From Owenweeksia sp. (lineage in GTDB: Bacteria > Bacteroidota > Bacteroidia > Flavobacteriales > Schleiferiaceae): a DNA stretch of 64,000 nt. The translations under genes and the position numbers were made by a program. Position 1 is the stretch's first letter; every line of letters starts with the position of its first letter. The DNA lies in NCBI GenBank assembly GCA_002695025.1, contig NZNV01000017.1:558001-622000 (forward strand). Reading direction: 5' to 3'. Under the pieces are notes generated by a model. The model saw nothing but the letters and a program-made list of their open reading frames with translations, was not told where the DNA came from and did no database searches. This document shows positions 26,577 to 41,298 of the stretch, piece after piece.

Positions 26577-28193
26577 ATGAAAAAACTAGTACTAGCAGGT
26601 TTGTTGCTTTCAGCCGCCTGCACAGTATCCGTAGCACAAGATAGTCTGGCCATGAATAAGTTGGGCCATTTGTCCTATCCCGTGCAACTTAACGATGTAT
26701 GGGGATATACGGATGCAGGAGGTAATGAGTATGCCCTGGTAGGAGCACGGAGTGGATTCTCCATAGTGGACGTTACCAACCCGGCTACACCGGTTGAATT
26801 GCATTTTATCCCCGGAGTATATTCTACCTGGAGGGATATCAAGACCTGGAGTCATTATGCTTATGTGGTACACGATGGATATTCTTCAGGGACACCGGAC
26901 GGAATAATGATCGTGGATATGGACAGCGTAAATATGCCTAACCCTAAATTCGATCGTTTTTATCACGCTAACTCAGACTTACCCGGCAACCCGTTTCTGC
27001 AAAGGGCACACAATATTTACATTGATGAAAATGGTATTCTCTATGTTTTTGGAGCCGGTAATATCGGTAATGGGGGTGCCCTGATGTTTGATCTTAAACC
27101 GGATCCTGAAAACCCTGCTTATATCGGGGCTTTTGATACATACTACCTGCACGATGGGATGGTACGGGGTGATACGCTCTGGGGTGGAGCCATTAATGAT
27201 GATAAGCTGGTGGTTGTGGACGTATCCAACAAAAGCAATCCACAGATATTGGGTGATATCATCACTCCTAATGCATTTACGCACAACTGCTGGGTGTCTG
27301 ATGACAATCAAACGGTTTATACTACTGATGAAATATCCGGAGCCTACGTAGCTGCTTATGATGTGTCTGATCCGGCCAATATCTCGGAACGTGACCGCAT
27401 CCGAATCAGTTATGGCGGAACAGATGTAATTCCGCACAACACGCATGTATTGGGCGATTTTCTCGTTACCTCATATTATACTTCCGGTGTACAGATCGTG
27501 GATGCTACCATGCCTGACATCCTCATTGAAACTGCGTATTACGATACTTCACCACTTACTGGAAACGGCTATAACGGAGCCTGGGGAGCCTATCCTTTTT
27601 TGCCCAGCGGTAACATCCTGGTTACCGATATTGAACAGGGACTTTTTATCTTGAACAGCACCTATCCCAAAGGATGTTATTTCACGGGCCTGGTAAAGGA
27701 TTCGATTACCCAAAACCCTATACCCAATGCTGATCTTGTTATGCTGAATATTAATGATACCCTGCGGGCCAATATTTTCGGAGAGTTCCGCACCGGAACA
27801 ACCGATGCCGCTATTTACCCGGTGGTGGTCAGCAAACCTGGCTATTATACGGATACCGTTGATGTGGTACTGACCAATGGCCTGGAAACACATGTTGAAA
27901 TAGCCCTTTTACCGTTGGGTTTCTCCCTGGAAGAAGGTAGTTTGAAATCACCGGTACGGCTAAGCCCCAACCCGGCAGCGGGATTCTTTGATCTTGATCT
28001 TTCCGGTGTTGATGGCGAACGGGCTACCCTTCAGGTGTACGATATGCGAGGTTCCCTGATGATGGAAAAAACCGTAAACCTCTCGGAGAATACTGCTCAT
28101 GTTGAGCACGGTCTTCCTAATGGTGCTTATATAGTACAGCTGCAAACTCCACAGGCTTTATTTGAACCCACAAGGCTGATCATTCAGAAATAG
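26577..28193 (+). CDS. choice-of-anchor B family secreted protein with T9SS sorting domain
   Basis: A 538-aa exported protein. Signal peptide (MKKLVLAGLLLSAACTVSVAQ) is followed by a beta-propeller-like domain of about 340 residues with repeated DVWGYTDAGGNEYALVG / GFSIVDVTNPATPVE / HNIYIDENGILYVFG blocks, the hallmark of choice-of-anchor B proteins. A carboxypeptidase-regulatory-like beta domain comes next (YFTGLVKDSITQNPIPNADLVM, about 365-445). The last 75 residues are a type A sorting domain (LSPNPAAGFFDLDLSG ... LPNGAYIVQL). The function is unknown and surface location is expected. It begins 11 nt after parC, so it may be read from the same transcript. Confidence 0.9.
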   Translation: MKKLVLAGLLLSAACTVSVAQDSLAMNKLGHLSYPVQLNDVWGYTDAGGNEYALVGARSGFSIVDVTNPATPVELHFIPGVYSTWRDIKTWSHYAYVVHDGYSSGTPDGIMIVDMDSVNMPNPKFDRFYHANSDLPGNPFLQRAHNIYIDENGILYVFGAGNIGNGGALMFDLKPDPENPAYIGAFDTYYLHDGMVRGDTLWGGAINDDKLVVVDVSNKSNPQILGDIITPNAFTHNCWVSDDNQTVYTTDEISGAYVAAYDVSDPANISERDRIRISYGGTDVIPHNTHVLGDFLVTSYYTSGVQIVDATMPDILIETAYYDTSPLTGNGYNGAWGAYPFLPSGNILVTDIEQGLFILNSTYPKGCYFTGLVKDSITQNPIPNADLVMLNINDTLRANIFGEFRTGTTDAAIYPVVVSKPGYYTDTVDVVLTNGLETHVEIALLPLGFSLEEGSLKSPVRLSPNPAAGFFDLDLSGVDGERATLQVYDMRGSLMMEKTVNLSENTAHVEHGLPNGAYIVQLQTPQALFEPTRLIIQK

Positions 28194-31292: not shown

Positions 31293-32624
31293 GTGATAGG
31301 CCGTTTTAAGAAACTTCTGAGAACCAATAAATCGTTGTCGCTCATCAGTAGCGGAACAGCAGCGATACTCGGGCTTATTACGTTTGGCTTGCTGGCACGC
31401 TCGTTTTCCATGTCGGAACTGGGATACTGGGGATTCTTTATGACGGTGTATACCCTTTTTGATATGCTCCGGGCAGGTTTGATCAGTAACGCCCTGATCA
31501 AAAGGATCAATGAATGTGATACTGAAGAGGATGCGGCTGTAGTGATCGGGTCCGGGTGGAAACTAAGCCTTTTGATCACGATCATTGGCTCGGCAGCTAT
31601 AGCGCTTACCTTTTACATTATTTATTATTTCACCCAGGACGAAAGTTACCGCTACCTCTTCCAGTGGTTTGTGCCTATAGCCCTGCTGAGCTTACCTCAC
31701 TCTATGGCAGTGTGGATACTGAATGCCTACGTTCGTTTTGACCGCATTGTATGGATACGCTTTTTCCTGCAAGGGTCCTTTTTGCTGGGCGTAGTATACC
31801 AGTTTTACCTGCAGCCCGGCCTTAACTTTATACTTATTTGTTATTTACTGTCCAACCTGTTGCCTGCTTTACTGGTTATGGTTACCGGCTGGAGTAAGCT
31901 TCGTTATTTCCACCGGGGTAACCGCGATATGGACCGATCCCTTCTCAATTTCGGGAAGTTCAGCATGGCCAGCATGGTGGGAAGTAACTTCCTTCGTAGT
32001 TCCGATACCTTTATAATCATGTCCATTTTAGGACCTGGAGCTAATGCTGTTTATAGTGTAGCGGAACGCCTTATAGGCTTGTTTGATATTCCTCTAAGGG
32101 CTTTCGTAGCCATAGCCTTCCCCCAACTCGCTAAAAAATATGCGGTAGGCTGGAAGCAGGAGTTTGAACACGACCTGGAAAAAGATTCCGGCTTCTCCAC
32201 TTTATTACTTCTGCCCATCAGTATACTGGTATTCATTTTTGCCGAGCCACTGGTCATTGCCCTGGGTGGTGAAGAATACCAGAGCAGTGCAGATGTGTTA
32301 AGGATGTTCGCCATTTACACCGCCCTTACACCACTGGACCGTTTTACGGGTATAGCATTGGACGTTATCAACCGCCCTGATCTTAACTTCTATAAGGTGG
32401 TGCTTATGCTAACGGCCAATGTGGTGGGAGATATCCTGGTTCTCCAATTTTCGGAAAAACTGGTTTGGGTAGCCTTTATTTCAATCATAACCTTTGGTAC
32501 GGGTATCCTTTTTGGGTTCTTATTCCTTCGCCAACACATCTCGATCCATCTTAGGAATGTAGTCCAAAAGGGTGGTTATGAGTTTGTAAGACTTGTTAAA
32601 AAGTATGTTGGCAACTCCAACTAA
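31293..32624 (+). CDS. Wzx-type polysaccharide flippase (MATE/MVF-like superfamily)
   Basis: A 443-aa polytopic membrane protein with about 12 predicted helices and a GTG start (MIGRFKKLLRTNKSLSLISSG). Family features are the N-terminal LITFGLLARSFSMSELGYWGFF, the cytoplasmic loop NFGKFSMASMVGSNFLRSSDTFIIMSILG, and the late LLLPISILVFIFAEPLVIALGGEEYQSSADVLRMFAIYTAL. It is expected to turn undecaprenyl-PP-linked oligosaccharide across the inner membrane, supplying the Wzy-like polymerase encoded at 39.0-40.5 kb. It ends just before a palindrome that precedes the sigma-54 regulator gene. Confidence 0.88.
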   Translation: MIGRFKKLLRTNKSLSLISSGTAAILGLITFGLLARSFSMSELGYWGFFMTVYTLFDMLRAGLISNALIKRINECDTEEDAAVVIGSGWKLSLLITIIGSAAIALTFYIIYYFTQDESYRYLFQWFVPIALLSLPHSMAVWILNAYVRFDRIVWIRFFLQGSFLLGVVYQFYLQPGLNFILICYLLSNLLPALLVMVTGWSKLRYFHRGNRDMDRSLLNFGKFSMASMVGSNFLRSSDTFIIMSILGPGANAVYSVAERLIGLFDIPLRAFVAIAFPQLAKKYAVGWKQEFEHDLEKDSGFSTLLLLPISILVFIFAEPLVIALGGEEYQSSADVLRMFAIYTALTPLDRFTGIALDVINRPDLNFYKVVLMLTANVVGDILVLQFSEKLVWVAFISIITFGTGILFGFLFLRQHISIHLRNVVQKGGYEFVRLVKKYVGNSN

Positions 32625-32646: not shown

Positions 32647-32698
32647 TTCTGAGATTTTGATGCCATCTTTGGGAGAACTAAAATTCCAAAGTCAGTCC

Positions 32699-34045
32699 AT
32701 GGATATTCTAAAAATCTTTGTGGTAGATGATAATGAGCTGTACTCAAAAATGGCTCAGCACCACCTCTCCCTCAATCCTGACAACGAAGTGGAAGTTTTT
32801 AGGGGCGGTAAGGAATGCCTGGACAATCTCTACAAAAAACCCAATCTGATTTTTTTGGATTACTCTTTGCCTCAGATGTCCGGGATTGAGATCCTCAGAA
32901 AAATTAAAGAAACACACCCGGAAATTCCCGTGATAATTGTTAGCGGCCAAGAAGATGTAAGTACAGCGGTAAACCTTCTGAAGGAGGGAGCCTATGATTA
33001 TATCGTAAAGGATGAAAATGCCAAGGAGCGGATGTGGAATGCTTCCAACCATGTGCGGGAAAATGCCCGTCTTCGTGATGAACTGGATAAGCTCCGCGAA
33101 GAAGTGAACCAGAAGTATGACTTCTCCAATATTAAAGGGAATAGCCAAGCGATAAAAAATGTATTCAAGCTCATTGAAAAAGCGGCTCAAACTAATATTA
33201 CGGTATCAGTAACCGGTGAAACGGGAACTGGTAAAGAGTTGGTAGCTAAGGCTATACACTATAACTCTAAATTCCATAAAAAGTCGTTGGTGGCCGTTAA
33301 CATCGCAGCTATCCCCCACGATCTGCTGGAAAGCGAACTATTTGGTCATGAAAAGGGAGCCTTTACCGGTGCCATTAACAAGCGTATTGGAAAATTTGAG
33401 GAGGCTAACGGAGGCACCATCTTTTTGGATGAAATAGGCGAAATGGACCTGCAGCTTCAGGCCAAACTATTAAGGGTATTACAGGAAAAGGAAGTAACCC
33501 GTATTGGAAGCAATCAACCCATTAAGATCAACGCCCGCATTATTGTGGCTACCCACCGCAATCTGGCCGAAGAGGTAAAAGCCGGTAATTTCAGGGAAGA
33601 CCTATACTACCGCCTGCTGGGTTTGCCGATAGAGCTTCCTCCTTTACGTGAGCGGGAAAACGATATTGTGTTATTGGCCAAATACTTTGTGGATGATTTT
33701 GCCCGTGAGAATAAAATGGGAAAGATCCAGATAACGCCTGAAGCACAGAAGAAAATGATGAATTACCGCTGGCCCGGTAACGTCAGGGAATTGAAAGCGG
33801 TAATGGAGCTGGCTGCTGTTATGGCGGATGATGGTAAGATCGAAGAACGTAACATCAACTTCAACTCCACTAGCAGTATGGATAACCTGATCACGGAAGA
33901 GACTACCCTTAAAGACTATACCGCCCGTATTATCCAGCATTTCCTGGATAAATATGATCGCAACGTAGTGAAGGTGGCCAAAAAGCTGGATATAGGTAAA
34001 AGCACCATTTACCGGATGATAAAAAACGATGAATTAACTATTTAA
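32699..34045 (+). CDS. sigma-54-dependent response regulator (NtrC family)
   Basis: About 448 aa from ATG at 32699; upstream in-frame starts at 32657 (TTG) and 32660 (ATG) add residues not seen in the family. The receiver domain has D10, D11 and phosphoacceptor D54 (IFLDYSLP). A short coiled linker leads to an AAA+ domain with Walker A GETGTGKE (about 170) and [15 protein letters not shown], the loop that contacts sigma-54. The Walker [13 protein letters not shown] and a C-terminal Fis-type helix-turn-helix ([19 protein letters not shown]) complete it. All key residues look intact, so it should activate sigma-54 promoters when phosphorylated. No -24/-12 promoter was found nearby, so its targets may be elsewhere. 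Confidence 0.93.
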
Positions 34046-34062
34046 GATAAACTTGAATTGAA

Positions 34063-34410
34063 ATGTCTGACAAAATTTACGATTTAAGTCAATTAGAGGA
34101 ACTGGCAGGAGGAAGCGAGGAATTTGTCAACAGTATGGTTGATACTTTCCTGGAGCACACCCCTTCACAGCTGGAAGAAATGAAAAAAGCTTTCAGTGGC
34201 AAGGACTGGACTACCATGGGCGCTATTGCCCATAAAATAAAACCCAATATCGACCTTTTCGGGATAAAATCAATCTACACGGATATACGTGAAATTGAGA
34301 GTAAAGGTAAAAATGGGGTGGAGGATGCAGCCCTGACGGAACAAATTTCAAAAGTGGATAGCGTGTTGCGAACAGCCTTTGAGCAGTTACGCAGCCGCAC
34401 AAACGGTTAA
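34063..34410 (+). CDS. Hpt domain phosphotransfer protein
   Basis: A 115-aa single-domain histidine phosphotransfer protein. The phospho-accepting histidine is H57 in AIAHKIKPNIDLFGI, within the usual four-helix sequence (EEFVNSMVDTFLEHTPSQLEEMKKAF before it). It would carry phosphate between a hybrid kinase and receiver domains. Its neighbours are an NtrC-type regulator 17 nt upstream and a single-domain receiver 6 nt downstream, either of which could be its partner. No kinase lies in the window. Confidence 0.88.
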   Translation: MSDKIYDLSQLEELAGGSEEFVNSMVDTFLEHTPSQLEEMKKAFSGKDWTTMGAIAHKIKPNIDLFGIKSIYTDIREIESKGKNGVEDAALTEQISKVDSVLRTAFEQLRSRTNG

Positions 34411-34416
34411 AGGCTC

Positions 34417-34788
34417 ATGAAACAGGTACTGATTATAGATGACGAACCCATCATGAGAAAACTGCTGGAGCAGATCCTCAAGGATAAATACGAAGTTATT
34501 TCACTTGAAAACGGCAGGGAAGGGCTGGAATGGATGTATTCCGGCAATATTCCGGACCTTGTGGTAGCGGATCTGAATATGCCCGAGATCAACGGCTTTG
34601 AATACATCAAAAAGGTGCGTGAAAGCGGCTTTTTCAACGATGTTCCTTTAATAGTACTCTCTGGTGAGGAAAGCAGTTCAGAACGTATCAAGTGCCTTAA
34701 ACTGGGCGCCAATGATTACCTCATTAAGCCATTTAATCCCGAAGAACTGGGGTTGCGCATTGACAACCTAATCAGCCTTAGGTCTTGA
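34417..34788 (+). CDS. single-domain response regulator (receiver)
   Basis: A 123-aa CheY-like receiver with D8 and D9 (IIDDEP), phosphoacceptor D52 (VVADLNMPEINGFEY), the conserved Ser in IVLSGEE and the Lys in YLIKPFNPEEL. It has no output domain. Its TGA overlaps the TTG start of the next gene (TTGA), so the two proteins are made together. A direct contact with the receiver-like domain of that sugar transferase is a reasonable guess. Confidence 0.9.
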   Translation: MKQVLIIDDEPIMRKLLEQILKDKYEVISLENGREGLEWMYSGNIPDLVVADLNMPEINGFEYIKKVRESGFFNDVPLIVLSGEESSSERIKCLKLGANDYLIKPFNPEELGLRIDNLISLRS

Positions 34789-35924
34789 AACATATCCTTT
34801 ACATAGGGGATGAACCATCTGTAGTGGAGCGCTACAGCAAGGTAGAGGGAGCAAAGCTGCACCAGGTTAAAAATGTGGTGGGCTTTCATAACCTTCTGGA
34901 AAATCTGAGCCAGTATGATATGATACTGGCCGAATACCATTTGAAAGGATTAAAGGGAGACGGAATTTTCACCCGTTATAAAGAACTGCTTAACAATCTT
35001 AAAGTGCCTTTTACCTTGATTGACCGCGACCTGGAACTGGGCAAACGAAAGGAATTTCTGAAGGAAGGTATTACCGAACTGTATGAGCCGGGCCTGAGTG
35101 AAGAAATAGTGGTGGAACGCATAGACTTCCTGAAGCAAATGCTGGAAGCCAAGCTGGGAGACGCCAGACAGATGAAGTATGAGGAGTATAAAATACCCGT
35201 GGCCAAAAGGGTTTTTGACATCGTGGTGGCCGGATTGGCTCTCCTGGTACTTTCTCCCTTATTGATCCTGGTGATCATTGCGCTCCGGCTGGAGTCCAGG
35301 GGTCCCATTTTCTACGTATCTAAAAGGGTGGGTACCGGTTATAAGGTTTTTGACTTTTATAAGTTCCGCTCTATGTACGTTGATGCGGCCGAAAGGTTGA
35401 AGGAGGTGCAACATCTCAACCAATACTCAAAGCCTGATAATACGGATAGTCTGAGGAAGGAATACAGGTCTTTATTAGGTTCGCCCACGCTTATCTATAA
35501 GGACGGCACTCCCATGAGCGAGGAGGAATACCTTGAGCTTAAACGTAAGCAACAAGCCGGAACCTTTATCAAAATAGCCAATGACCCACGGGTTACCAAG
35601 GTGGGCAAGTTTATCCGCAATACCAGTGTAGATGAATTACCACAATTGTTTAATGTACTCAAAGGGGATATGTCCATTGTAGGTAACCGCCCTTTGCCCT
35701 TGTACGAAGCGGAGCAACTTACCTCTGATGACTGGGGTGAACGTTTCCTGGCTCCGGCAGGCATTACCGGGCTTTGGCAGGTGGAAAAACGCGGAAAAGG
35801 TGAAATGTCTGAGGAAGAGCGTAAGGCTCTGGATAATAAGTACGCCAAGAATTTCAGCTTTTGGAATGATATAAGATTGATCCTCAAGACGATACCGGCA
35901 TTGTTTCAAAAAGAAAATGTTTGA
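34785..35924 (+). CDS. degenerate receiver domain fused to a priming sugar-phosphate transferase
   Basis: A 379-aa fusion. Residues 1-120 follow the receiver fold (KHILYIGDEPSVVERY, YDMILAEYHLKG, VPFTLIDRD, ELYEPG). The phosphoacceptor Asp is E50, the Ser/Thr position is D80 and the Lys position is E101, so phosphorylation is not expected. Residues from about 127 form a monotopic phosphoglycosyl transferase: KRVFDIVVAGLALLVLSPLLILVIIAL membrane hairpin, KFRSMYVDA, SVDELPQLFNVLKGDMSIVGNRPLP with the catalytic Asp-Glu, and ITGLWQV. An insert of about 60 residues follows KFRSM. It should transfer sugar-1-phosphate to undecaprenyl phosphate to start repeat-unit synthesis. The start is TTG, overlapping the upstream receiver gene. 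Confidence 0.9.
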   Translation: MKHILYIGDEPSVVERYSKVEGAKLHQVKNVVGFHNLLENLSQYDMILAEYHLKGLKGDGIFTRYKELLNNLKVPFTLIDRDLELGKRKEFLKEGITELYEPGLSEEIVVERIDFLKQMLEAKLGDARQMKYEEYKIPVAKRVFDIVVAGLALLVLSPLLILVIIALRLESRGPIFYVSKRVGTGYKVFDFYKFRSMYVDAAERLKEVQHLNQYSKPDNTDSLRKEYRSLLGSPTLIYKDGTPMSEEEYLELKRKQQAGTFIKIANDPRVTKVGKFIRNTSVDELPQLFNVLKGDMSIVGNRPLPLYEAEQLTSDDWGERFLAPAGITGLWQVEKRGKGEMSEEERKALDNKYAKNFSFWNDIRLILKTIPALFQKENV

Positions 35925-36719
35925 ATGTTTGTTAAAAAGTGCTTACATAGAAGCTTATTGACCGCCTGGATGACCTTTACCTTTATAGGGATGGTTGCAC
36001 AGTTACAGGCACAAACGGATACAAGTAGTGTATCAGCCGATCTGGCTGCTGACAGTCTCACTCCTGTGGATATCAACATTCTCGATTATCTGCCGCCTTT
36101 ACCTGTGCTTATCGATTCCGCTATGAGGCATGCTCCTGAAAAGGACTATTACGAAGCGCTTATAGAATCAGCAGAGTATGACGTGGTCATCGAAAAGAAA
36201 GGCTGGGCCAAAGATATTCGTTTTGTGGCCGGCTACAACTGGTCTTACGGAAACCAGGTGATCATCCAGGGAATTTCCACGGGTGGCAATCAAATCAATG
36301 AGGGATATAATTATGGCGTGGGCCTTACTATACCCCTCAGCAGCTGGTACGGCCGGAACGATCGTATAAAACGGGCCGAGGCCATTATGGAAAGCCAGGA
36401 AGCCAAATACAATGAAGCGGAGCGCCAGGTTCGTGAAAGAGTGATTGAAACCTATAATGAACTGCTGCTGTTGCAGCGCTTACTTGATATTATCTCGGAA
36501 GCTAAAGAATCATCCAGGCTCATCTCGGATATGGCCGAAGAACGATTCCGGGATGGAGAGTTGTCTCTGGATCAATTGGGACAAACGGCTGAGCTAAAGG
36601 CACGCTATGCTTCGGAATATGAACAATTGCGTACCCAGTTCAGCAATGCGTATACCCGACTTGAACGTTTAGTGGGAGTGCCATTCAGTAAATTCAAATT
36701 CACAAAATACACCAAATGA
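35925..36719 (+). CDS. half-length TolC-like outer-membrane protein in the polysaccharide export operon
   Basis: A 264-aa exported protein with a signal peptide (LLTAWMTFTFIGMVAQLQAQ). It then carries one TolC/OEP repeat: helices starting LPVLIDSAMRHAPEKDYYEALIESAEYDV, beta strands (FVAGYNWSYG and YNYGVGLTIPLSSWYGRN) and a long helical hairpin (RVIETYNELLLLQRLLDII, then LSLDQLGQTAELKARYASEY). Full TolC proteins have two such repeats (about 450 aa), so this is half size and would need more subunits per pore. It begins directly after the transferase stop (TGAATG) and overlaps the co-polymerase by 4 nt. It may replace the usual Wza/OPX exporter. Confidence 0.82.
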   Translation: MFVKKCLHRSLLTAWMTFTFIGMVAQLQAQTDTSSVSADLAADSLTPVDINILDYLPPLPVLIDSAMRHAPEKDYYEALIESAEYDVVIEKKGWAKDIRFVAGYNWSYGNQVIIQGISTGGNQINEGYNYGVGLTIPLSSWYGRNDRIKRAEAIMESQEAKYNEAERQVRERVIETYNELLLLQRLLDIISEAKESSRLISDMAEERFRDGELSLDQLGQTAELKARYASEYEQLRTQFSNAYTRLERLVGVPFSKFKFTKYTK

Positions 36720-38926
36720 GTTTAGTACAGTTTTTCAGGGTATTAAACCGGAACCTTAACCTGTTCCTGCTGTGCTCTATTGTATTGGCTGTAGTGGTAT
36801 TTTTCCTTACCCGTAACCTTCCTAAAGAATACCAGTCCGAAACGGAGGTATACACCGGTATTGCATCCGGGCTTAATGTGGCTTCCGTAGAGAACTCTGC
36901 CCTCGACTTCTTTGCCACCAGTAACGAGTATGATAACCTGATCAATATTATTCAGTCCAAGCAAACTTTGGTTGAGGTTGGTGAACGCTTATTGTACCGC
37001 CACATGATGCTGGACAGCGCTGATCCACGTTTTATCAGCGAGGAAAACTGGGGGCATTTTCGTTATAAGATGCCTCAGGAACTGGAAGATTCCCTCCTGG
37101 TACCCGGTTCCATGAACGAAACCCTGGAGAATATACGGGAGTATAAACAGAAAAACTACGACTCCTACCTGGTAAAGCTCACTTTTGAAGACGGAGGCTC
37201 ACCCTACAGCTATAAATCCATTCAACGGATCAACGTATACCGGCTGCAAAACTCTGACCTTATCAAGATCAGCTACACCTGGTCCGATCCGGGAATTGTA
37301 CAAAGCACCCTGGAAATCCTCAACGATGTGTTTACCGATAAGATGGCCCAGATCAAAATGGGGCAATCCAGTGACGTAATAGAGTATTTCCAGGAACAGG
37401 TAAAATTAGCCAGTCAGCGGTTACAGGTAGCCGAAACCAAGCTGAAGGATTTCCGCATCAAGAACCGCATTATCAATTACCAGGAACAAACCAAGTCCAT
37501 CGCTACCTTAAAGGAAATGATGGAGGATGAATACCAGAAGGAACTGGCGGTAAAAGCCGCTGCCGAAGCCTCCGTGCAAAAGCTTGAAAAACAGCTGGAA
37601 CTCAATAAAGAGATCATTAAGTTCAGTGATGATATCCTCGAAAAGCGCAAGCAGCTGGCTGACCTTAAATTTAAGATTGCTCAACTGGAGGTGTACTATA
37701 AGGACGCCCGGGAGCTGGAAAAATTAAAAAACGAAGCCGAACGCCTGGAAGCCTCCTTGAATAATACGGTTGAAAAGCGTTACCAGTACGGTAAAACTAC
37801 CGAAGGTGTACCCCTCCGAGATGTATTGCAGGAATGGCTTAGTTATACCTTGGCTTTGGATGAGGCTAATGCCCGACTGGAGGTTTTTGAAACCCGTAAA
37901 ACCTATTTCCGCTCTGTATATGATGAGTTTGCCCCTCTTGGTTCTGAGATAGCGCGTATGGAGCGCGAAATTGCGGTGGAAGAGAGGCATTACCTGGAAC
38001 TGTTGCACAGTATGAATATGGCCATGATGCGCCAGCAAAGTGAAACCCTGGCCACTGGTGGTCTGGTAGTAACGGTGCCACCCAGTTACCCGCTTCAGCC
38101 CCAGAAATCCAAATCGATGTTATTGGTACTGGTAGCGGCAGTAATAGGCTTTATTGTACCCTTCAGTATTGTGATCATTATGGAGTTCCTGGATAACACC
38201 ATACGCCATCCGGAAAGAGCGGAGGAGTTAACCGGTTTAAAACTGCTGGGTGCGTTCCCGGACCTGATGGAATACAGTAAGAACAAGAACGTAGACATGG
38301 TCTGGCTCAGGGAAAAAGCATTGGGACTGATGAGCCAGAATACCCGATTGGAAATGCGAAACCTGGGAGTGTCCAATAAAAAGCCCAAGTTTGTAGTGGT
38401 TTTCAGCACACGTGAAAATGATGGTAAAGTATTCATTACTCACGAGTTGGCCAATGAGCTGGTTTCTATGAATTTTAAGGTGTTGGTCATCAGTCATAAA
38501 CCTGATGGTAGGGAAGCTTTTTATGATTCCGCCAGCTATGAGGGAGGACGTGAATTCCTTAAGACCCGCTCTTTTGAAGATCTGATACCGGCCGGCTATA
38601 CACCTTCGGTTTACGACTTTGTATTTATAACCTTCCAAAGTGTGCTTACCGAGCAATACCCGTTAGATCTGACCGAAAAGGCTGATATGGCTTTTTGTGT
38701 GATCTCGGCCCACCGTTCATGGAACAAAGCTGATCGTTTTGCCATGAAGGAGTTTGTGAATACGCTTAATGTTCCGCCTCGCCTTATCGTAAACGGTGTG
38801 GATCCTGATTATATGGATGCCGTACTCGGAGACATTAAGAAATCCCGTTCCTTCCTGCGGAGGTTTATGAAAATGATCTTTACCCTGGAGTTCCATTCCA
38901 AGGGCTTCAGATCACGCAATAAGTAA
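36716..38926 (+). CDS. polysaccharide co-polymerase (GumC/Wzc-like) with degenerate BY-kinase domain
   Basis: A 736-aa protein. TM1 is at about 15-32 (LFLLCSIVLAVVVFFL). A periplasmic Wzz-like region with long coiled coils (about 225-440) follows, then the P-rich segment PPSYPLQPQKSKS and TM2 at 469-489. A C-terminal cytoplasmic domain shaped like a bacterial tyrosine kinase ends it. Its nucleotide motifs are broken: the Walker A position reads STRENDGKV (564-572, no GKS/T), the A' motif reads VLVISHKPDGR (no Asp), and Walker B reads YDFVFITFQS (no Asp). The tail has no tyrosine cluster. It probably sets chain length or links to export without kinase activity. Confidence 0.9.
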   Translation: MSLVQFFRVLNRNLNLFLLCSIVLAVVVFFLTRNLPKEYQSETEVYTGIASGLNVASVENSALDFFATSNEYDNLINIIQSKQTLVEVGERLLYRHMMLDSADPRFISEENWGHFRYKMPQELEDSLLVPGSMNETLENIREYKQKNYDSYLVKLTFEDGGSPYSYKSIQRINVYRLQNSDLIKISYTWSDPGIVQSTLEILNDVFTDKMAQIKMGQSSDVIEYFQEQVKLASQRLQVAETKLKDFRIKNRIINYQEQTKSIATLKEMMEDEYQKELAVKAAAEASVQKLEKQLELNKEIIKFSDDILEKRKQLADLKFKIAQLEVYYKDARELEKLKNEAERLEASLNNTVEKRYQYGKTTEGVPLRDVLQEWLSYTLALDEANARLEVFETRKTYFRSVYDEFAPLGSEIARMEREIAVEERHYLELLHSMNMAMMRQQSETLATGGLVVTVPPSYPLQPQKSKSMLLVLVAAVIGFIVPFSIVIIMEFLDNTIRHPERAEELTGLKLLGAFPDLMEYSKNKNVDMVWLREKALGLMSQNTRLEMRNLGVSNKKPKFVVVFSTRENDGKVFITHELANELVSMNFKVLVISHKPDGREAFYDSASYEGGREFLKTRSFEDLIPAGYTPSVYDFVFITFQSVLTEQYPLDLTEKADMAFCVISAHRSWNKADRFAMKEFVNTLNVPPRLIVNGVDPDYMDAVLGDIKKSRSFLRRFMKMIFTLEFHSKGFRSRNK

Positions 38927-39046: not shown

Positions 39047-40519
39047 TTACTTGGTATTGGCTTTTCTTCCTCCTCGTGGAGTAGGTTTATTATCAGGAAG
39101 TTCATACCAGCCTTCCTCGTTCCAGTAGCGCATATTGTACACGAAAACGATGGCTATAAAGGTGGTAATGGAAACCGGGAACTGGGTAAGTACGGAGTTC
39201 CCGTAATTGGCCATCAGTATACCCGCGTAGCCCGCCAGTATGGCCATGGAAATATTTCTGCGCTCCATATCCGGGAACCGCCACATGAACATAACGCCCC
39301 GCACGAGGATAAATATCCACATGCCCACGTAAAAGATCCGGCCGATAAGTCCTGTTTCAGCACGGATACGGGTATATAGTCCGTCAGGCTCAAAATTGGC
39401 CAGCCAGGTGCCCGGTGAAAAGCGTTGTCCCCATGAACCCACCGTTCCCATACCGCCTCCAAAGGGTTTATCACGGAGGTATTCGGTAAGTCTGGCACGG
39501 TTACGCAATCGGGTGTTCAGCGAAGCATCTTTAGGGTCAAGGGCCGTACGCAGCCGGTTTATATCGTAATTGGCATTTCCTATGGTGGTGTATTTCAGGA
39601 AAATAAAGGCACTCAATAATATGGCTCCGCCAATAGAAAGCATCCTGAAATTACGGGTCATGATAAGGTAAAGGATACCTCCTATACCCGGTACAGCCAA
39701 GGCACCACGGGTACCACTGAGCATAAGAGCATAAAAGGAAAAAAGTCCCAGGACCACGTAAAATATCCTGCGGCCCATACTCCAGGGACCTAAGCAGAGA
39801 ATAAAACTCATGATGGATATTTGTCCCATGGCGGCCCCAAAGGTTCCTGCGTCAAAATAATAGGAGAAGATGCGAAGTTTTCCGAATAATACGTGGGTAA
39901 CTGCAGCTCCTTCATCCAGCCAACGCTGTTCATAAGAGTCCACACCGAAGAACTTTTGTTTCATGGCCCAGAGAATGGCAAATACAGACATACCCAGCCA
40001 GATATTGAAGAACTGAAACCAGTCCTTCCGATCGGTAAACAGTATAAAACACAGCCCAACCAGCAGTAACTGGTATAAGGCTACACCCCGCATGGAGTAG
40101 AACCAGGCGGCAAAGCTATACGCCTGAGGGTTGAATATCTGCAGGATAATGTAAGCCATCCAAATAGCCATGAGAAGCACCACTTCATTGGCGGCAAGTG
40201 AGAAATCCACCTTTTTCCAGTGCTTGAGGGCCAGCACCACATAGGTGAAAACCAGCACTATATCTATGGTGAGTCCGAATGGGAAGCTGGAAGGCACATA
40301 CCGGCCCAGGATGGGCAGTATGAATGACATGATCAGCACAAAGTAGATCCCGAATTTGGGGAAACGAAAGAAGATCACGAAAAAGATGATCATAAAAGGG
40401 ATGGCAACGGCCGCACCGGCCACTATCAAGCCCTTGGTAACCATGAGGTATCCCGTTACCGCAGCCATCAGGGCGGAGATAACGTATTTTATAAGATCAC
40501 TGGTAAATAAACGTCCCAA
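39047..40519 (-). CDS. O-antigen polymerase/ligase family (Wzy-like) membrane protein
   Basis: A 490-aa protein with about ten to twelve predicted membrane helices and a basic tail (TPRGGRKANTK). The family region is the large periplasmic loop NTRLRNRARLTEYLRDKPFGGGMGTVG, then NFEPDGLYTRIRAETGLIGRIFYVGMWIF, typical of the O-antigen ligase/polymerase superfamily. In this locus it most likely polymerises repeat units flipped by the Wzx-type protein; a ligase role cannot be excluded. It follows the unknown exported protein by 5 nt on the same strand and converges with the co-polymerase operon. The 120-nt convergent gap shows no strong terminator. Confidence 0.87.
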   Translation of the reverse strand: MGRLFTSDLIKYVISALMAAVTGYLMVTKGLIVAGAAVAIPFMIIFFVIFFRFPKFGIYFVLIMSFILPILGRYVPSSFPFGLTIDIVLVFTYVVLALKHWKKVDFSLAANEVVLLMAIWMAYIILQIFNPQAYSFAAWFYSMRGVALYQLLLVGLCFILFTDRKDWFQFFNIWLGMSVFAILWAMKQKFFGVDSYEQRWLDEGAAVTHVLFGKLRIFSYYFDAGTFGAAMGQISIMSFILCLGPWSMGRRIFYVVLGLFSFYALMLSGTRGALAVPGIGGILYLIMTRNFRMLSIGGAILLSAFIFLKYTTIGNANYDINRLRTALDPKDASLNTRLRNRARLTEYLRDKPFGGGMGTVGSWGQRFSPGTWLANFEPDGLYTRIRAETGLIGRIFYVGMWIFILVRGVMFMWRFPDMERRNISMAILAGYAGILMANYGNSVLTQFPVSITTFIAIVFVYNMRYWNEEGWYELPDNKPTPRGGRKANTK

Positions 40520-40524
40520 GCGGA

Positions 40525-41298
40525 TCAGGTTTTGAAATCAAAACTAGGCGGTAAACGTATAAATTCGGAAAAGTTTTCGATGTCCGTCTCGTAATACAGG
40601 TAATCAAACAAACCCTCATTGATATACATGGACTGCCCGTTGATGGTAAAGTCCTTTCTAACACCTTCCACATCACGAAAAACCTTATGCAGCGAAAAGA
40701 ACTGGAAGCGGATCCGGTCCATTACGGTAAAAGGCTGGATCATAGCCACAAATTCACGGTCAAAATTTTCATTTACGGCTACTTTACCCCTTATGGCGCT
40801 CATCACTTTGGACTTATTTATATTCCGGATAGTGCCGGCATCCAGCAGATTTATGGTAATAAGCTGCACAGCCGTATCCTTTAAATTGTCCAGGGCATCC
40901 AGGGCATTTTTGTTAAAGAGATAATAACTTACATGGGTGGTGTTTTTCCAGCCTTTTTGGGTGAATTCATATTTATAGAACCCATCGGAAAAGATCTTGA
41001 CCAACAATACTAAGGTATCCTTGCCGTAGAGTGTGGGATAGATCCTGAACTCCTCAAAATTGTCCGACCCCAGGCGGTGTGGCTTCTCCTTGTAAAACTT
41101 CTTATCGGTAGAAATGTGGCGCTCCGGAATGGTCTTTTTAGCTGATGTCCATTGACCGTCAATGGAGTACATCCAACCGGTAACATCCTTTTTCAGAACC
41201 GAGAACGGGCGTCTGGAAAATTGAGGCAAGGGATTGTTATCACGTAGTTGGGCAGATAGCTGGAGGCTAACAAACAGCAGGAAAACAGTTAAGCGCAT
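40525..41298 (-). CDS. exported protein of unknown function, co-transcribed with the Wzy-like gene
   Basis: A 257-aa protein with a signal peptide (MRLTVFLLFVSLQLSAQ) and no further membrane helix. I recognise no family. The mature part is mixed alpha/beta with many aromatic residues (GWMYSIDGQWTSAKK, DNFEEFRIYPTLYGKDTLVLLVKIFSDGFYKYEF, SMYINEGLFDYLYYETDIENFSEFI). Because it is first in a two-gene operon with the polymerase, an envelope role in polysaccharide assembly or attachment is inferred. An exact -7 box lies 26 nt upstream. Confidence 0.82.
   Translation of the reverse strand: MRLTVFLLFVSLQLSAQLRDNNPLPQFSRRPFSVLKKDVTGWMYSIDGQWTSAKKTIPERHISTDKKFYKEKPHRLGSDNFEEFRIYPTLYGKDTLVLLVKIFSDGFYKYEFTQKGWKNTTHVSYYLFNKNALDALDNLKDTAVQLITINLLDAGTIRNINKSKVMSAIRGKVAVNENFDREFVAMIQPFTVMDRIRFQFFSLHKVFRDVEGVRKDFTINGQSMYINEGLFDYLYYETDIENFSEFIRLPPSFDFKT

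Follow-up and report, generated by a model that had tools for sequence, protein, structure and literature searches.

A degenerate receiver domain on a small phosphoglycosyl transferase and an adjacent single-domain response regulator as a candidate split switch for exopolysaccharide initiation in Bacteroidota

The window, by which we mean the whole 64,000-nucleotide stretch of Owenweeksia sp. DNA analysed here (contig NZNV01000017.1, positions 558,001 to 622,000), contains a gene for a monotopic phosphoglycosyl transferase (PGT) with an additional N-terminal domain (the N-domain). The 4-nt overlap between this gene and the one before it, which encodes a single-domain response regulator (sdRR), contains the TTG start of the former and the TGA stop of the latter. 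The pair lies among genes for a Wzx-like flippase, a sigma-54-type response regulator, an Hpt phosphotransfer protein, an outer membrane efflux-type protein and a Wzz-like chain-length determinant (Table 1). The last of these also matches TIGR03007 (E 1.9e-30), again below the cut-off of the model.

Table 1. Features of the locus and of its surroundings, with positions in the window.
Feature	Position	Strand	Evidence and remarks
LVIVD-repeat protein with Por secretion tail	26577-28193		On the margin of the polysaccharide cluster; present in relatives
Polysaccharide flippase (Wzx-like)	31293..32624	+	PF13440, E 6.6e-16
Sigma-54-type response regulator	32657..34045	+	PF00072, PF00158
Hpt phosphotransfer protein	34063..34410	+	PF01627, E 4e-7; same place in close relatives
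sdRR with Asp52, Ser82 and Lys104	34417..34788	+	PF00072, E 6.3e-29; directly upstream of transferase
Pseudo-receiver/PGT gene	34785-35924	+	379-aa open reading frame, TTG start
Predicted pseudo-receiver domain, residues 1-125 of transferase	34785..35159	+	AlphaFold2, Foldseek, VIA-align, hhalign
Glu50 codon (phosphoacceptor position)	34932..34934	+	Profile alignment to sdRR family
Monotopic PGT domain, residues 139-378	35199..35918	+	PF02397, PglC match
Insert, residues 209-261 (53 aa)	35409..35567	+	Alignment to WbaP; common to many relatives
Catalytic dyad Asp283-Glu284	35631..35636	+	Invariant in 52 alignment rows, window included
Outer membrane efflux-type protein (OEP)	35925..36719	+	PF02321, E 1.2e-24
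Chain-length determinant (Wzz-like)	36716..38926	+	PF02706, E 5.8e-5; PF13807, E 1.8e-4; both below cut-off
490-aa gene, Wzy-like by position	39047-40519		No Pfam match
257-aa protein	40525-41298	-	No Pfam match; adjoins the 490-aa gene in many close relatives

The C-terminal part of the transferase is a clear member of the Bac_transf family (PF02397; residues 141-374, E 2.9e-59, 200 bits against a cut-off of 27), whose solved relatives are WbaP and PglC. The model of the full-length protein has a pLDDT of 85.4 and superimposes on PglC (8e37) with a VIA-align Z of 20.6 (178 aligned residues, rmsd 2.3). The initial annotation had stated that the enzyme retains its catalytic Asp-Glu pair, and this holds in every row of the alignment. 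The D-x12-P motif of the re-entrant helix is also present, with D145 invariant and P158 found in at least 90% of the 52 rows; the roles of this motif and of the Asp-Glu dyad, the latter as in PglC, are described in excerpts of PMC12802240. Judged from its sequence, the enzyme is a small monotopic PGT with intact catalytic motifs, predicted to transfer a sugar-1-phosphate to undecaprenyl phosphate. The insert of about 60 residues that had been called unusual is real, since WbaP has only 14 residues opposite it, but it is ordinary for the family: the same region measures about 51-80 residues in one set of relatives and 15-24 in another.

Residues 1-128 on their own have no Pfam or NCBIfam match at E values up to 0.1, and the N-domain gives no PF00072 match within the same limit. 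The AlphaFold2 model of residues 1-137, made from 52 sequences, has a mean pLDDT of 90.4 and the strand and helix alternation of a (beta-alpha)5 receiver. All 50 Foldseek matches listed for this model are receiver proteins, led by the PmrA receiver (9of3, E 1.7e-6). Superposition with VIA-align gave Z values of 15.9 for the NtrC1 receiver 1zy2 (133 aligned, rmsd 3.4), 15.4 for PmrA 9of3 (117 aligned, rmsd 2.1) and 14.8 for PorX (128 aligned, rmsd 5.6). Comparison of the N-domain family profile with that of the sdRR family by hhalign covered 116 columns with a probability of 99.6 and an E value of 7.7e-24. By model and profile, then, residues 1-125 are predicted to adopt a CheY-like receiver fold, in agreement with the receiver pattern that had been noticed in the first 120 residues.

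The tblastn alignments of residues 6-202 with 470-residue PGTs had first suggested homology to the N-terminal part of large PGTs. This was rejected when hhalign comparison with 15 large PGTs returned a probability of 0.5. The transferase has no match to PF13727, the DUF of large PGTs, at E values up to 0.1, and its model contains no four-helix bundle; one long helix (139-170) precedes the catalytic part.

The sdRR encoded in the window carries the full canonical set of phosphorylation residues, which allows the N-domain to be read against it position by position. In the profile alignment of the two families, E50 of the transferase lies opposite Asp52 of the sdRR and D80 opposite Ser82, confirming the assignment of these two residues to the phosphoacceptor and Ser/Thr positions in the initial annotation. 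The third assignment, E101 at the Lys position, does not survive: the alignment is gap-free near the C-terminal strand and places P102 opposite Lys104, so that E101 probably lies one residue before the Lys position and P102 at it. The window N-domain thus has G8-D9, E50, D80 and P102 at the positions of the acidic pair, Asp, Ser/Thr and Lys, respectively. Because the phosphorylation residues are missing, we refer to it as a pseudo-receiver and not as a functional receiver.

We counted the residues at these positions in 144 N-domains, which include that of the window and represent 141 distinct domains, as three loci belong to both of the sets described below. The alignment of the first set left out sequences containing X, N-domains shorter than 100 residues and sdRRs shorter than 110 residues, and kept 81 N-domains from 89 rows and 74 sdRRs from 78. 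The acceptor column holds Glu in 85 of the 144 domains, Asp in 27 and neither in 32; the acidic leaning is weaker in the genome-sample set alone, with Glu in 22 and Asp in 16 of 63. Acidic residues stand in the Ser/Thr column of 11 domains and in the Lys column of nine. Even if E101 is kept in the Lys register, three acidic residues occur together in only three of the 144 N-domains (the window, L011 and L012; L numbers denote loci). Column information tells the same story, with 2.65 bits at Glu50, the sixth most conserved position of the domain, 0.81 at the Ser/Thr position and 0.66 at the Lys position, against 3.89, 3.47 and 4.11 bits in the matching columns of the sdRR family. These counts show that the trio of acidic residues is no conserved code, and the idea of a domain locked by charge at all three switch positions fails as well: only the acceptor tends to be acidic, while the other two vary freely. 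E50 is thus common in homologues, and D80 and E101 are not conserved. Relatives that differ from the window at D80 and E101 do not regain the canonical set either, for Asp, Ser/Thr and Lys occur together in none of the 144 fused domains. Since the columns vary and none of the domains keeps all three residues, loss of phosphorylation is, on the sequence counts, a family trait of the N-domain, accompanied by a preference for an acidic residue at the acceptor. The central claim of the initial annotation, a receiver fold without phosphorylation residues, fused to a priming transferase, is thereby supported by the model, the structure matches and the residue counts.

The sdRRs behave differently. 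Asp is kept in 70 of the 74 sdRRs of the first set and in 62 of the 67 from the genome samples, and Ser/Thr and Lys are kept in all 141 (three loci again being in both sets). In the nine sdRRs in which Asp is replaced, the substitute is Ser in five, Glu in three (L179, L218, L220) and Val in one. The five with Ser (L072, L073, L085, L088, from Pedobacter, and L148) also have an altered acidic pair, and they still adjoin the PGT. Because nine of the 141 sdRRs are without Asp, phosphorylation cannot be a universal rule of the system; such sdRRs favour a role as a subunit, perhaps made constitutive in some lineages, and argue against a phosphate sink. A further feature of the sdRR family is Trp39 in the second helix region, which is highly conserved (5.45 bits) and is a possible contact site.

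The sdRR and the transferase occur together in nearly all of the relatives examined. The first set comprises 85 loci found by similarity, with one genome counted twice (L038, L118). The sdRR adjoins the PGT in 78 of these, and in 81 after restoration of three (L086, L142 and L143) that were false negatives of the distance limit. Among the others, L095 is without upstream DNA and L076 and L084 are without an N-domain, leaving L070 as the real exception, with an N-domain present and no sdRR in the 1.8 kb upstream. In the first-set loci, an sdRR lies directly upstream of 73 of 86 PGT genes and of one of 857 other genes.

As the first-set loci were found by similarity, the count was repeated on evenly drawn genomes. 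Overlapping samples of the phylum (matches in 33 of 296 genomes) and of the class (matches in 60 of 395) gave 75 distinct matches, the window's own included. These were picked with a profile of N-domain PGTs at E values up to 1e-70, a procedure that favours such PGTs but not their neighbours. An N-domain was called where at least 95 residues precede the KRxxD motif, and 61 of the 63 domains so called besides the window match the first-set profile, the exceptions at E 1e-3 being L215 and L216. An sdRR lies upstream of all 64 N-domain PGTs, always within 220 nt, and of four of the 11 PGTs without an N-domain (L170-L172, and L162, in which the frame is broken); the association has a Fisher p of 1.7e-7, uncorrected for ancestry. 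The 64 paired loci come from 61 genomes and from 19 families besides that of the window. None of the 64 PGTs is fused to its sdRR in a single chain, each having a separate upstream sdRR frame. In three genomes such a PGT occurs twice, each time with an sdRR of its own (L152/L177, L148/L178 and L167/L179).

Control loci lack this arrangement. A receiver gene was found within 1 kb, or the shorter stretch available, upstream of none of 18 distant PGTs, most of them from other phyla (22 were taken, of which four had less than 40 nt of upstream sequence), and upstream of none of three other PGT regions, out of four, in the window's own genome. That genome has 77 PF00072 matches, 12 of which lie in frames of up to 190 residues, so the probability of chance adjacency is well under 1%. 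An sdRR is present upstream although the N-domain is absent in L170-L172, which belong to one genus, and in L091, which has a short N-terminal stretch only; because these four loci keep the sdRR, the sdRR may not need the pseudo-receiver. We also noted L180 and L181 along with this genus, each with an sdRR upstream and a PGT without a pseudo-receiver; in the one of these whose upstream genes were read, L180, the pair is closely preceded by a hybrid kinase that matches Hpt weakly.

The signalling genes further upstream are less constant. The order of sigma-54 regulator and Hpt ahead of the sdRR is kept in close relatives, but the sdRR-PGT pairing is also kept where the flanks show no relative of either protein by BLAST, the only search made there. 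We scanned 20 upstream proteins from 19 more distant loci. Hybrid kinases are found near the sdRR in L039, L042, L046, L141 and L180, and L058 has a protein combining a response regulator with Hpt. No kinase or Hpt was present among the proteins scanned in 13 of the 19 loci; three have a sigma-54 regulator (L044, L051, L138), and the upstream genes in the rest include uvrB, sugar dehydrogenases and DUF4842 proteins. In L071, L080 and L093, large DUF4842 proteins lie directly upstream of the sdRR. Given this variety of upstream genes, the constant partner of the sdRR is the PGT and no particular kinase. A search of the window for the sigma-54 promoter consensus returned two matches with one mismatch, where 4.0 are expected, and none near the operon.

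The two components evolve at different rates. Between the window and its nearest relative, dN is 0.267 for the N-domain, 0.072 for the PGT part and 0.024 for the sdRR, with synonymous sites saturated, which indicates that the N-domain changes fast under constraint and that the sdRR is very conserved. Together with the spread of the domain over many families, these figures support the view that its altered residues are not random decay. That the N-domain is a decaying passenger has negligible probability: its fast evolution and the one broken genome-sample gene (L162) would fit, but the domain is open in 64 genome-sample loci with a recognizable profile, its dN is far below the saturated dS, and it has conserved positions that include Tyr6, Gly8, Glu50, Tyr100 and Phe115.

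In a first tree of PGTs (103 rows, with a few hand-picked first-set rows and L070 left out), members without an N-domain lie among those that bear one, implying five changes, three of them forced by starred branches. A single origin of the group without an N-domain is not rejected (p-AU 0.187), and there are at most three independent pairs. A second tree of 148 rows, with all usable first-set rows and L070 included, gives two independent pairs on starred branches; N-domain and sdRR change jointly in the same way 1.8 times on average and in opposite ways 0 times, with pairs too few for significance. Both tree counts left out L162, for its broken frame, and L095, and the second also L059. In a covariation analysis of 135 sdRR/N-domain pairs, the highest-scoring column pairs show no clustering, and since shuffling, used as the control, destroys ancestry too, the signal could not be told apart from common descent. 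Distances between sdRRs and between N-domains correlate at 0.73, a value that includes any signal of species relationship.

The loss of phosphorylation residues in the N-domain, their retention in the sdRR, the intact catalytic motifs and the near-invariant pairing lead us to read the two proteins as a split switch, of which the sdRR would be the phosphorylatable half and the transferase the output half; we consider this division of roles probable. A phosphorelay, here probably running through the adjacent Hpt, would phosphorylate the sdRR on Asp52. The phosphorylated sdRR would then dock on the N-terminal pseudo-receiver of the transferase, and docking would change PGT activity, most likely by switching the enzyme on. 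Transfer of the sugar-1-phosphate to undecaprenyl phosphate would thus follow the signal, and the step under control would be the first committed one of a Wzx/Wzy-type exopolysaccharide pathway. The docking itself, its interface between the two receiver folds, the sense of the control and the role of the Hpt as donor are inferred. The canonical sdRR upstream, which the initial annotation missed, makes phosphorylation-dependent control in trans likelier than the phosphorylation-independent lock proposed there. A strict version of the split switch is opposed by L070, by L170-L172 and L091, and by the nine sdRRs without Asp. The more general proposal, that Bacteroidota gate exopolysaccharide initiation by a receiver/pseudo-receiver heterodimer that turns a small monotopic PGT on, is tentative, with the balance close to even.

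Three other arrangements of the same parts have to be weighed. The sdRR could serve the Hpt and the sigma-54 regulator as a phosphate sink or shuttle and have no effect on the transferase in spite of the common operon, with the pseudo-receiver serving a structural, membrane-docking or metabolite-sensing role comparable to that of the DUF in large PGTs. The presence of all three signalling proteins together in the window and in near relatives fits such a scheme, and excerpts of PMC10942596 report UMP sensing by the DUF of WbaP, a large PGT; the N-domain, however, shows no profile relationship to the N-terminal part of large PGTs. We regard a sink or shuttle as unlikely, since the sdRR remains beside the PGT in loci whose surroundings yielded no such Hpt or sigma-54 regulator, and also where it has lost its Asp, a change that one would expect to put an end to a sink.

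The acidic acceptor suggests a different possibility, in which the fused domain is a permanent phosphomimic that by itself holds the transferase in an active or dimeric state, and the sdRR acts on some other target. The prevalence of Glu at a well conserved acceptor column agrees with this, as do five domains that combine a Glu acceptor with retained Ser/Thr and Lys (L036, L149, L150, L185 and L203). The domains with neither Glu nor Asp, and the lower share of Glu in the genome samples, speak against it, and it leaves the pairing in 64 of 64 loci unexplained; we judge it improbable.

The loci that keep an sdRR without an N-domain (L170-L172 and L091) are what would be seen if the catalytic domain were the direct target of the sdRR, with the pseudo-receiver no more than a dispensable spacer or an aid to dimerization. 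In the genome samples, the presence of an sdRR follows that of the N-domain too closely for this reading to be more than a slim prospect: every N-domain PGT has one, and seven of the 11 PGTs without the domain are also without an sdRR.

The split switch remains the reading that we prefer, and the occurrence of the gene pair in many Bacteroidota families makes the question testable in common laboratory strains of, for example, Pedobacter and Mucilaginibacter. With such a switch, a degenerate receiver that is invisible to the domain libraries used (Pfam and NCBIfam) would acquire a function. Undecaprenyl phosphate is shared with peptidoglycan synthesis, and cells therefore gain by deciding on the start of exopolysaccharide synthesis at the first step.

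The closest known system is that of Myxococcus xanthus, in which the phosphorylated single-domain regulator EpsW activates the initiating PGT EpsZ, as supported by proximity labelling, heterologous expression and modelling (excerpts of PMC12802240, mBio 2025). Both systems tie a phosphorylatable single-domain regulator to an initiating monotopic PGT of a Wzx/Wzy-type pathway, although there proximity and stimulation were tested, and here the tie is gene adjacency alone, in another phylum. According to the same excerpts, EpsZ belongs to the large PGTs and contains a helix bundle and a DUF, whereas the enzyme described here is a small PGT with a pseudo-receiver. Against the EpsW model NF041866, which has a cut-off of 200 bits, the window sdRR reaches 81.3, and for this reason we do not call it EpsW. 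In those excerpts the authors further state that small PGTs are functional monomers, so that the mechanism may not involve dimers.

Other relatives share parts of the architecture. PglC (8e37) has the same catalytic fold and Asp-Glu dyad, but its chains of 205 residues leave no room for an N-terminal receiver. In WbaP (8t53; excerpts of PMC10942596), too, the same catalytic domain is preceded by a regulatory part; unlike WbaP and other large PGTs, the transferase of the window has neither PF13727 nor a four-helix bundle, and its N-domain is unrelated to them by profile. An architectural precedent is the occurrence of receiver domains in small monotopic PGTs, known to us through the citation of O'Toole et al. 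2021 (PNAS) in PMC12802240, in which a receiver-type domain shares a chain with the transferase as it does here. The fusion of a receiver with a monotopic PGT and the principle of control by an sdRR are each already known separately; we found no description of a module of canonical sdRR and pseudo-receiver-PGT in the literature searched, an incomplete collection. The authors of PMC12802240 suggest, in the excerpts, that control of initiation by a phosphorylated sdRR may be more widespread. If the split switch is correct, the strategy of EpsW/EpsZ would have a counterpart in a second phylum, with a regulatory domain unrelated to that of EpsZ.
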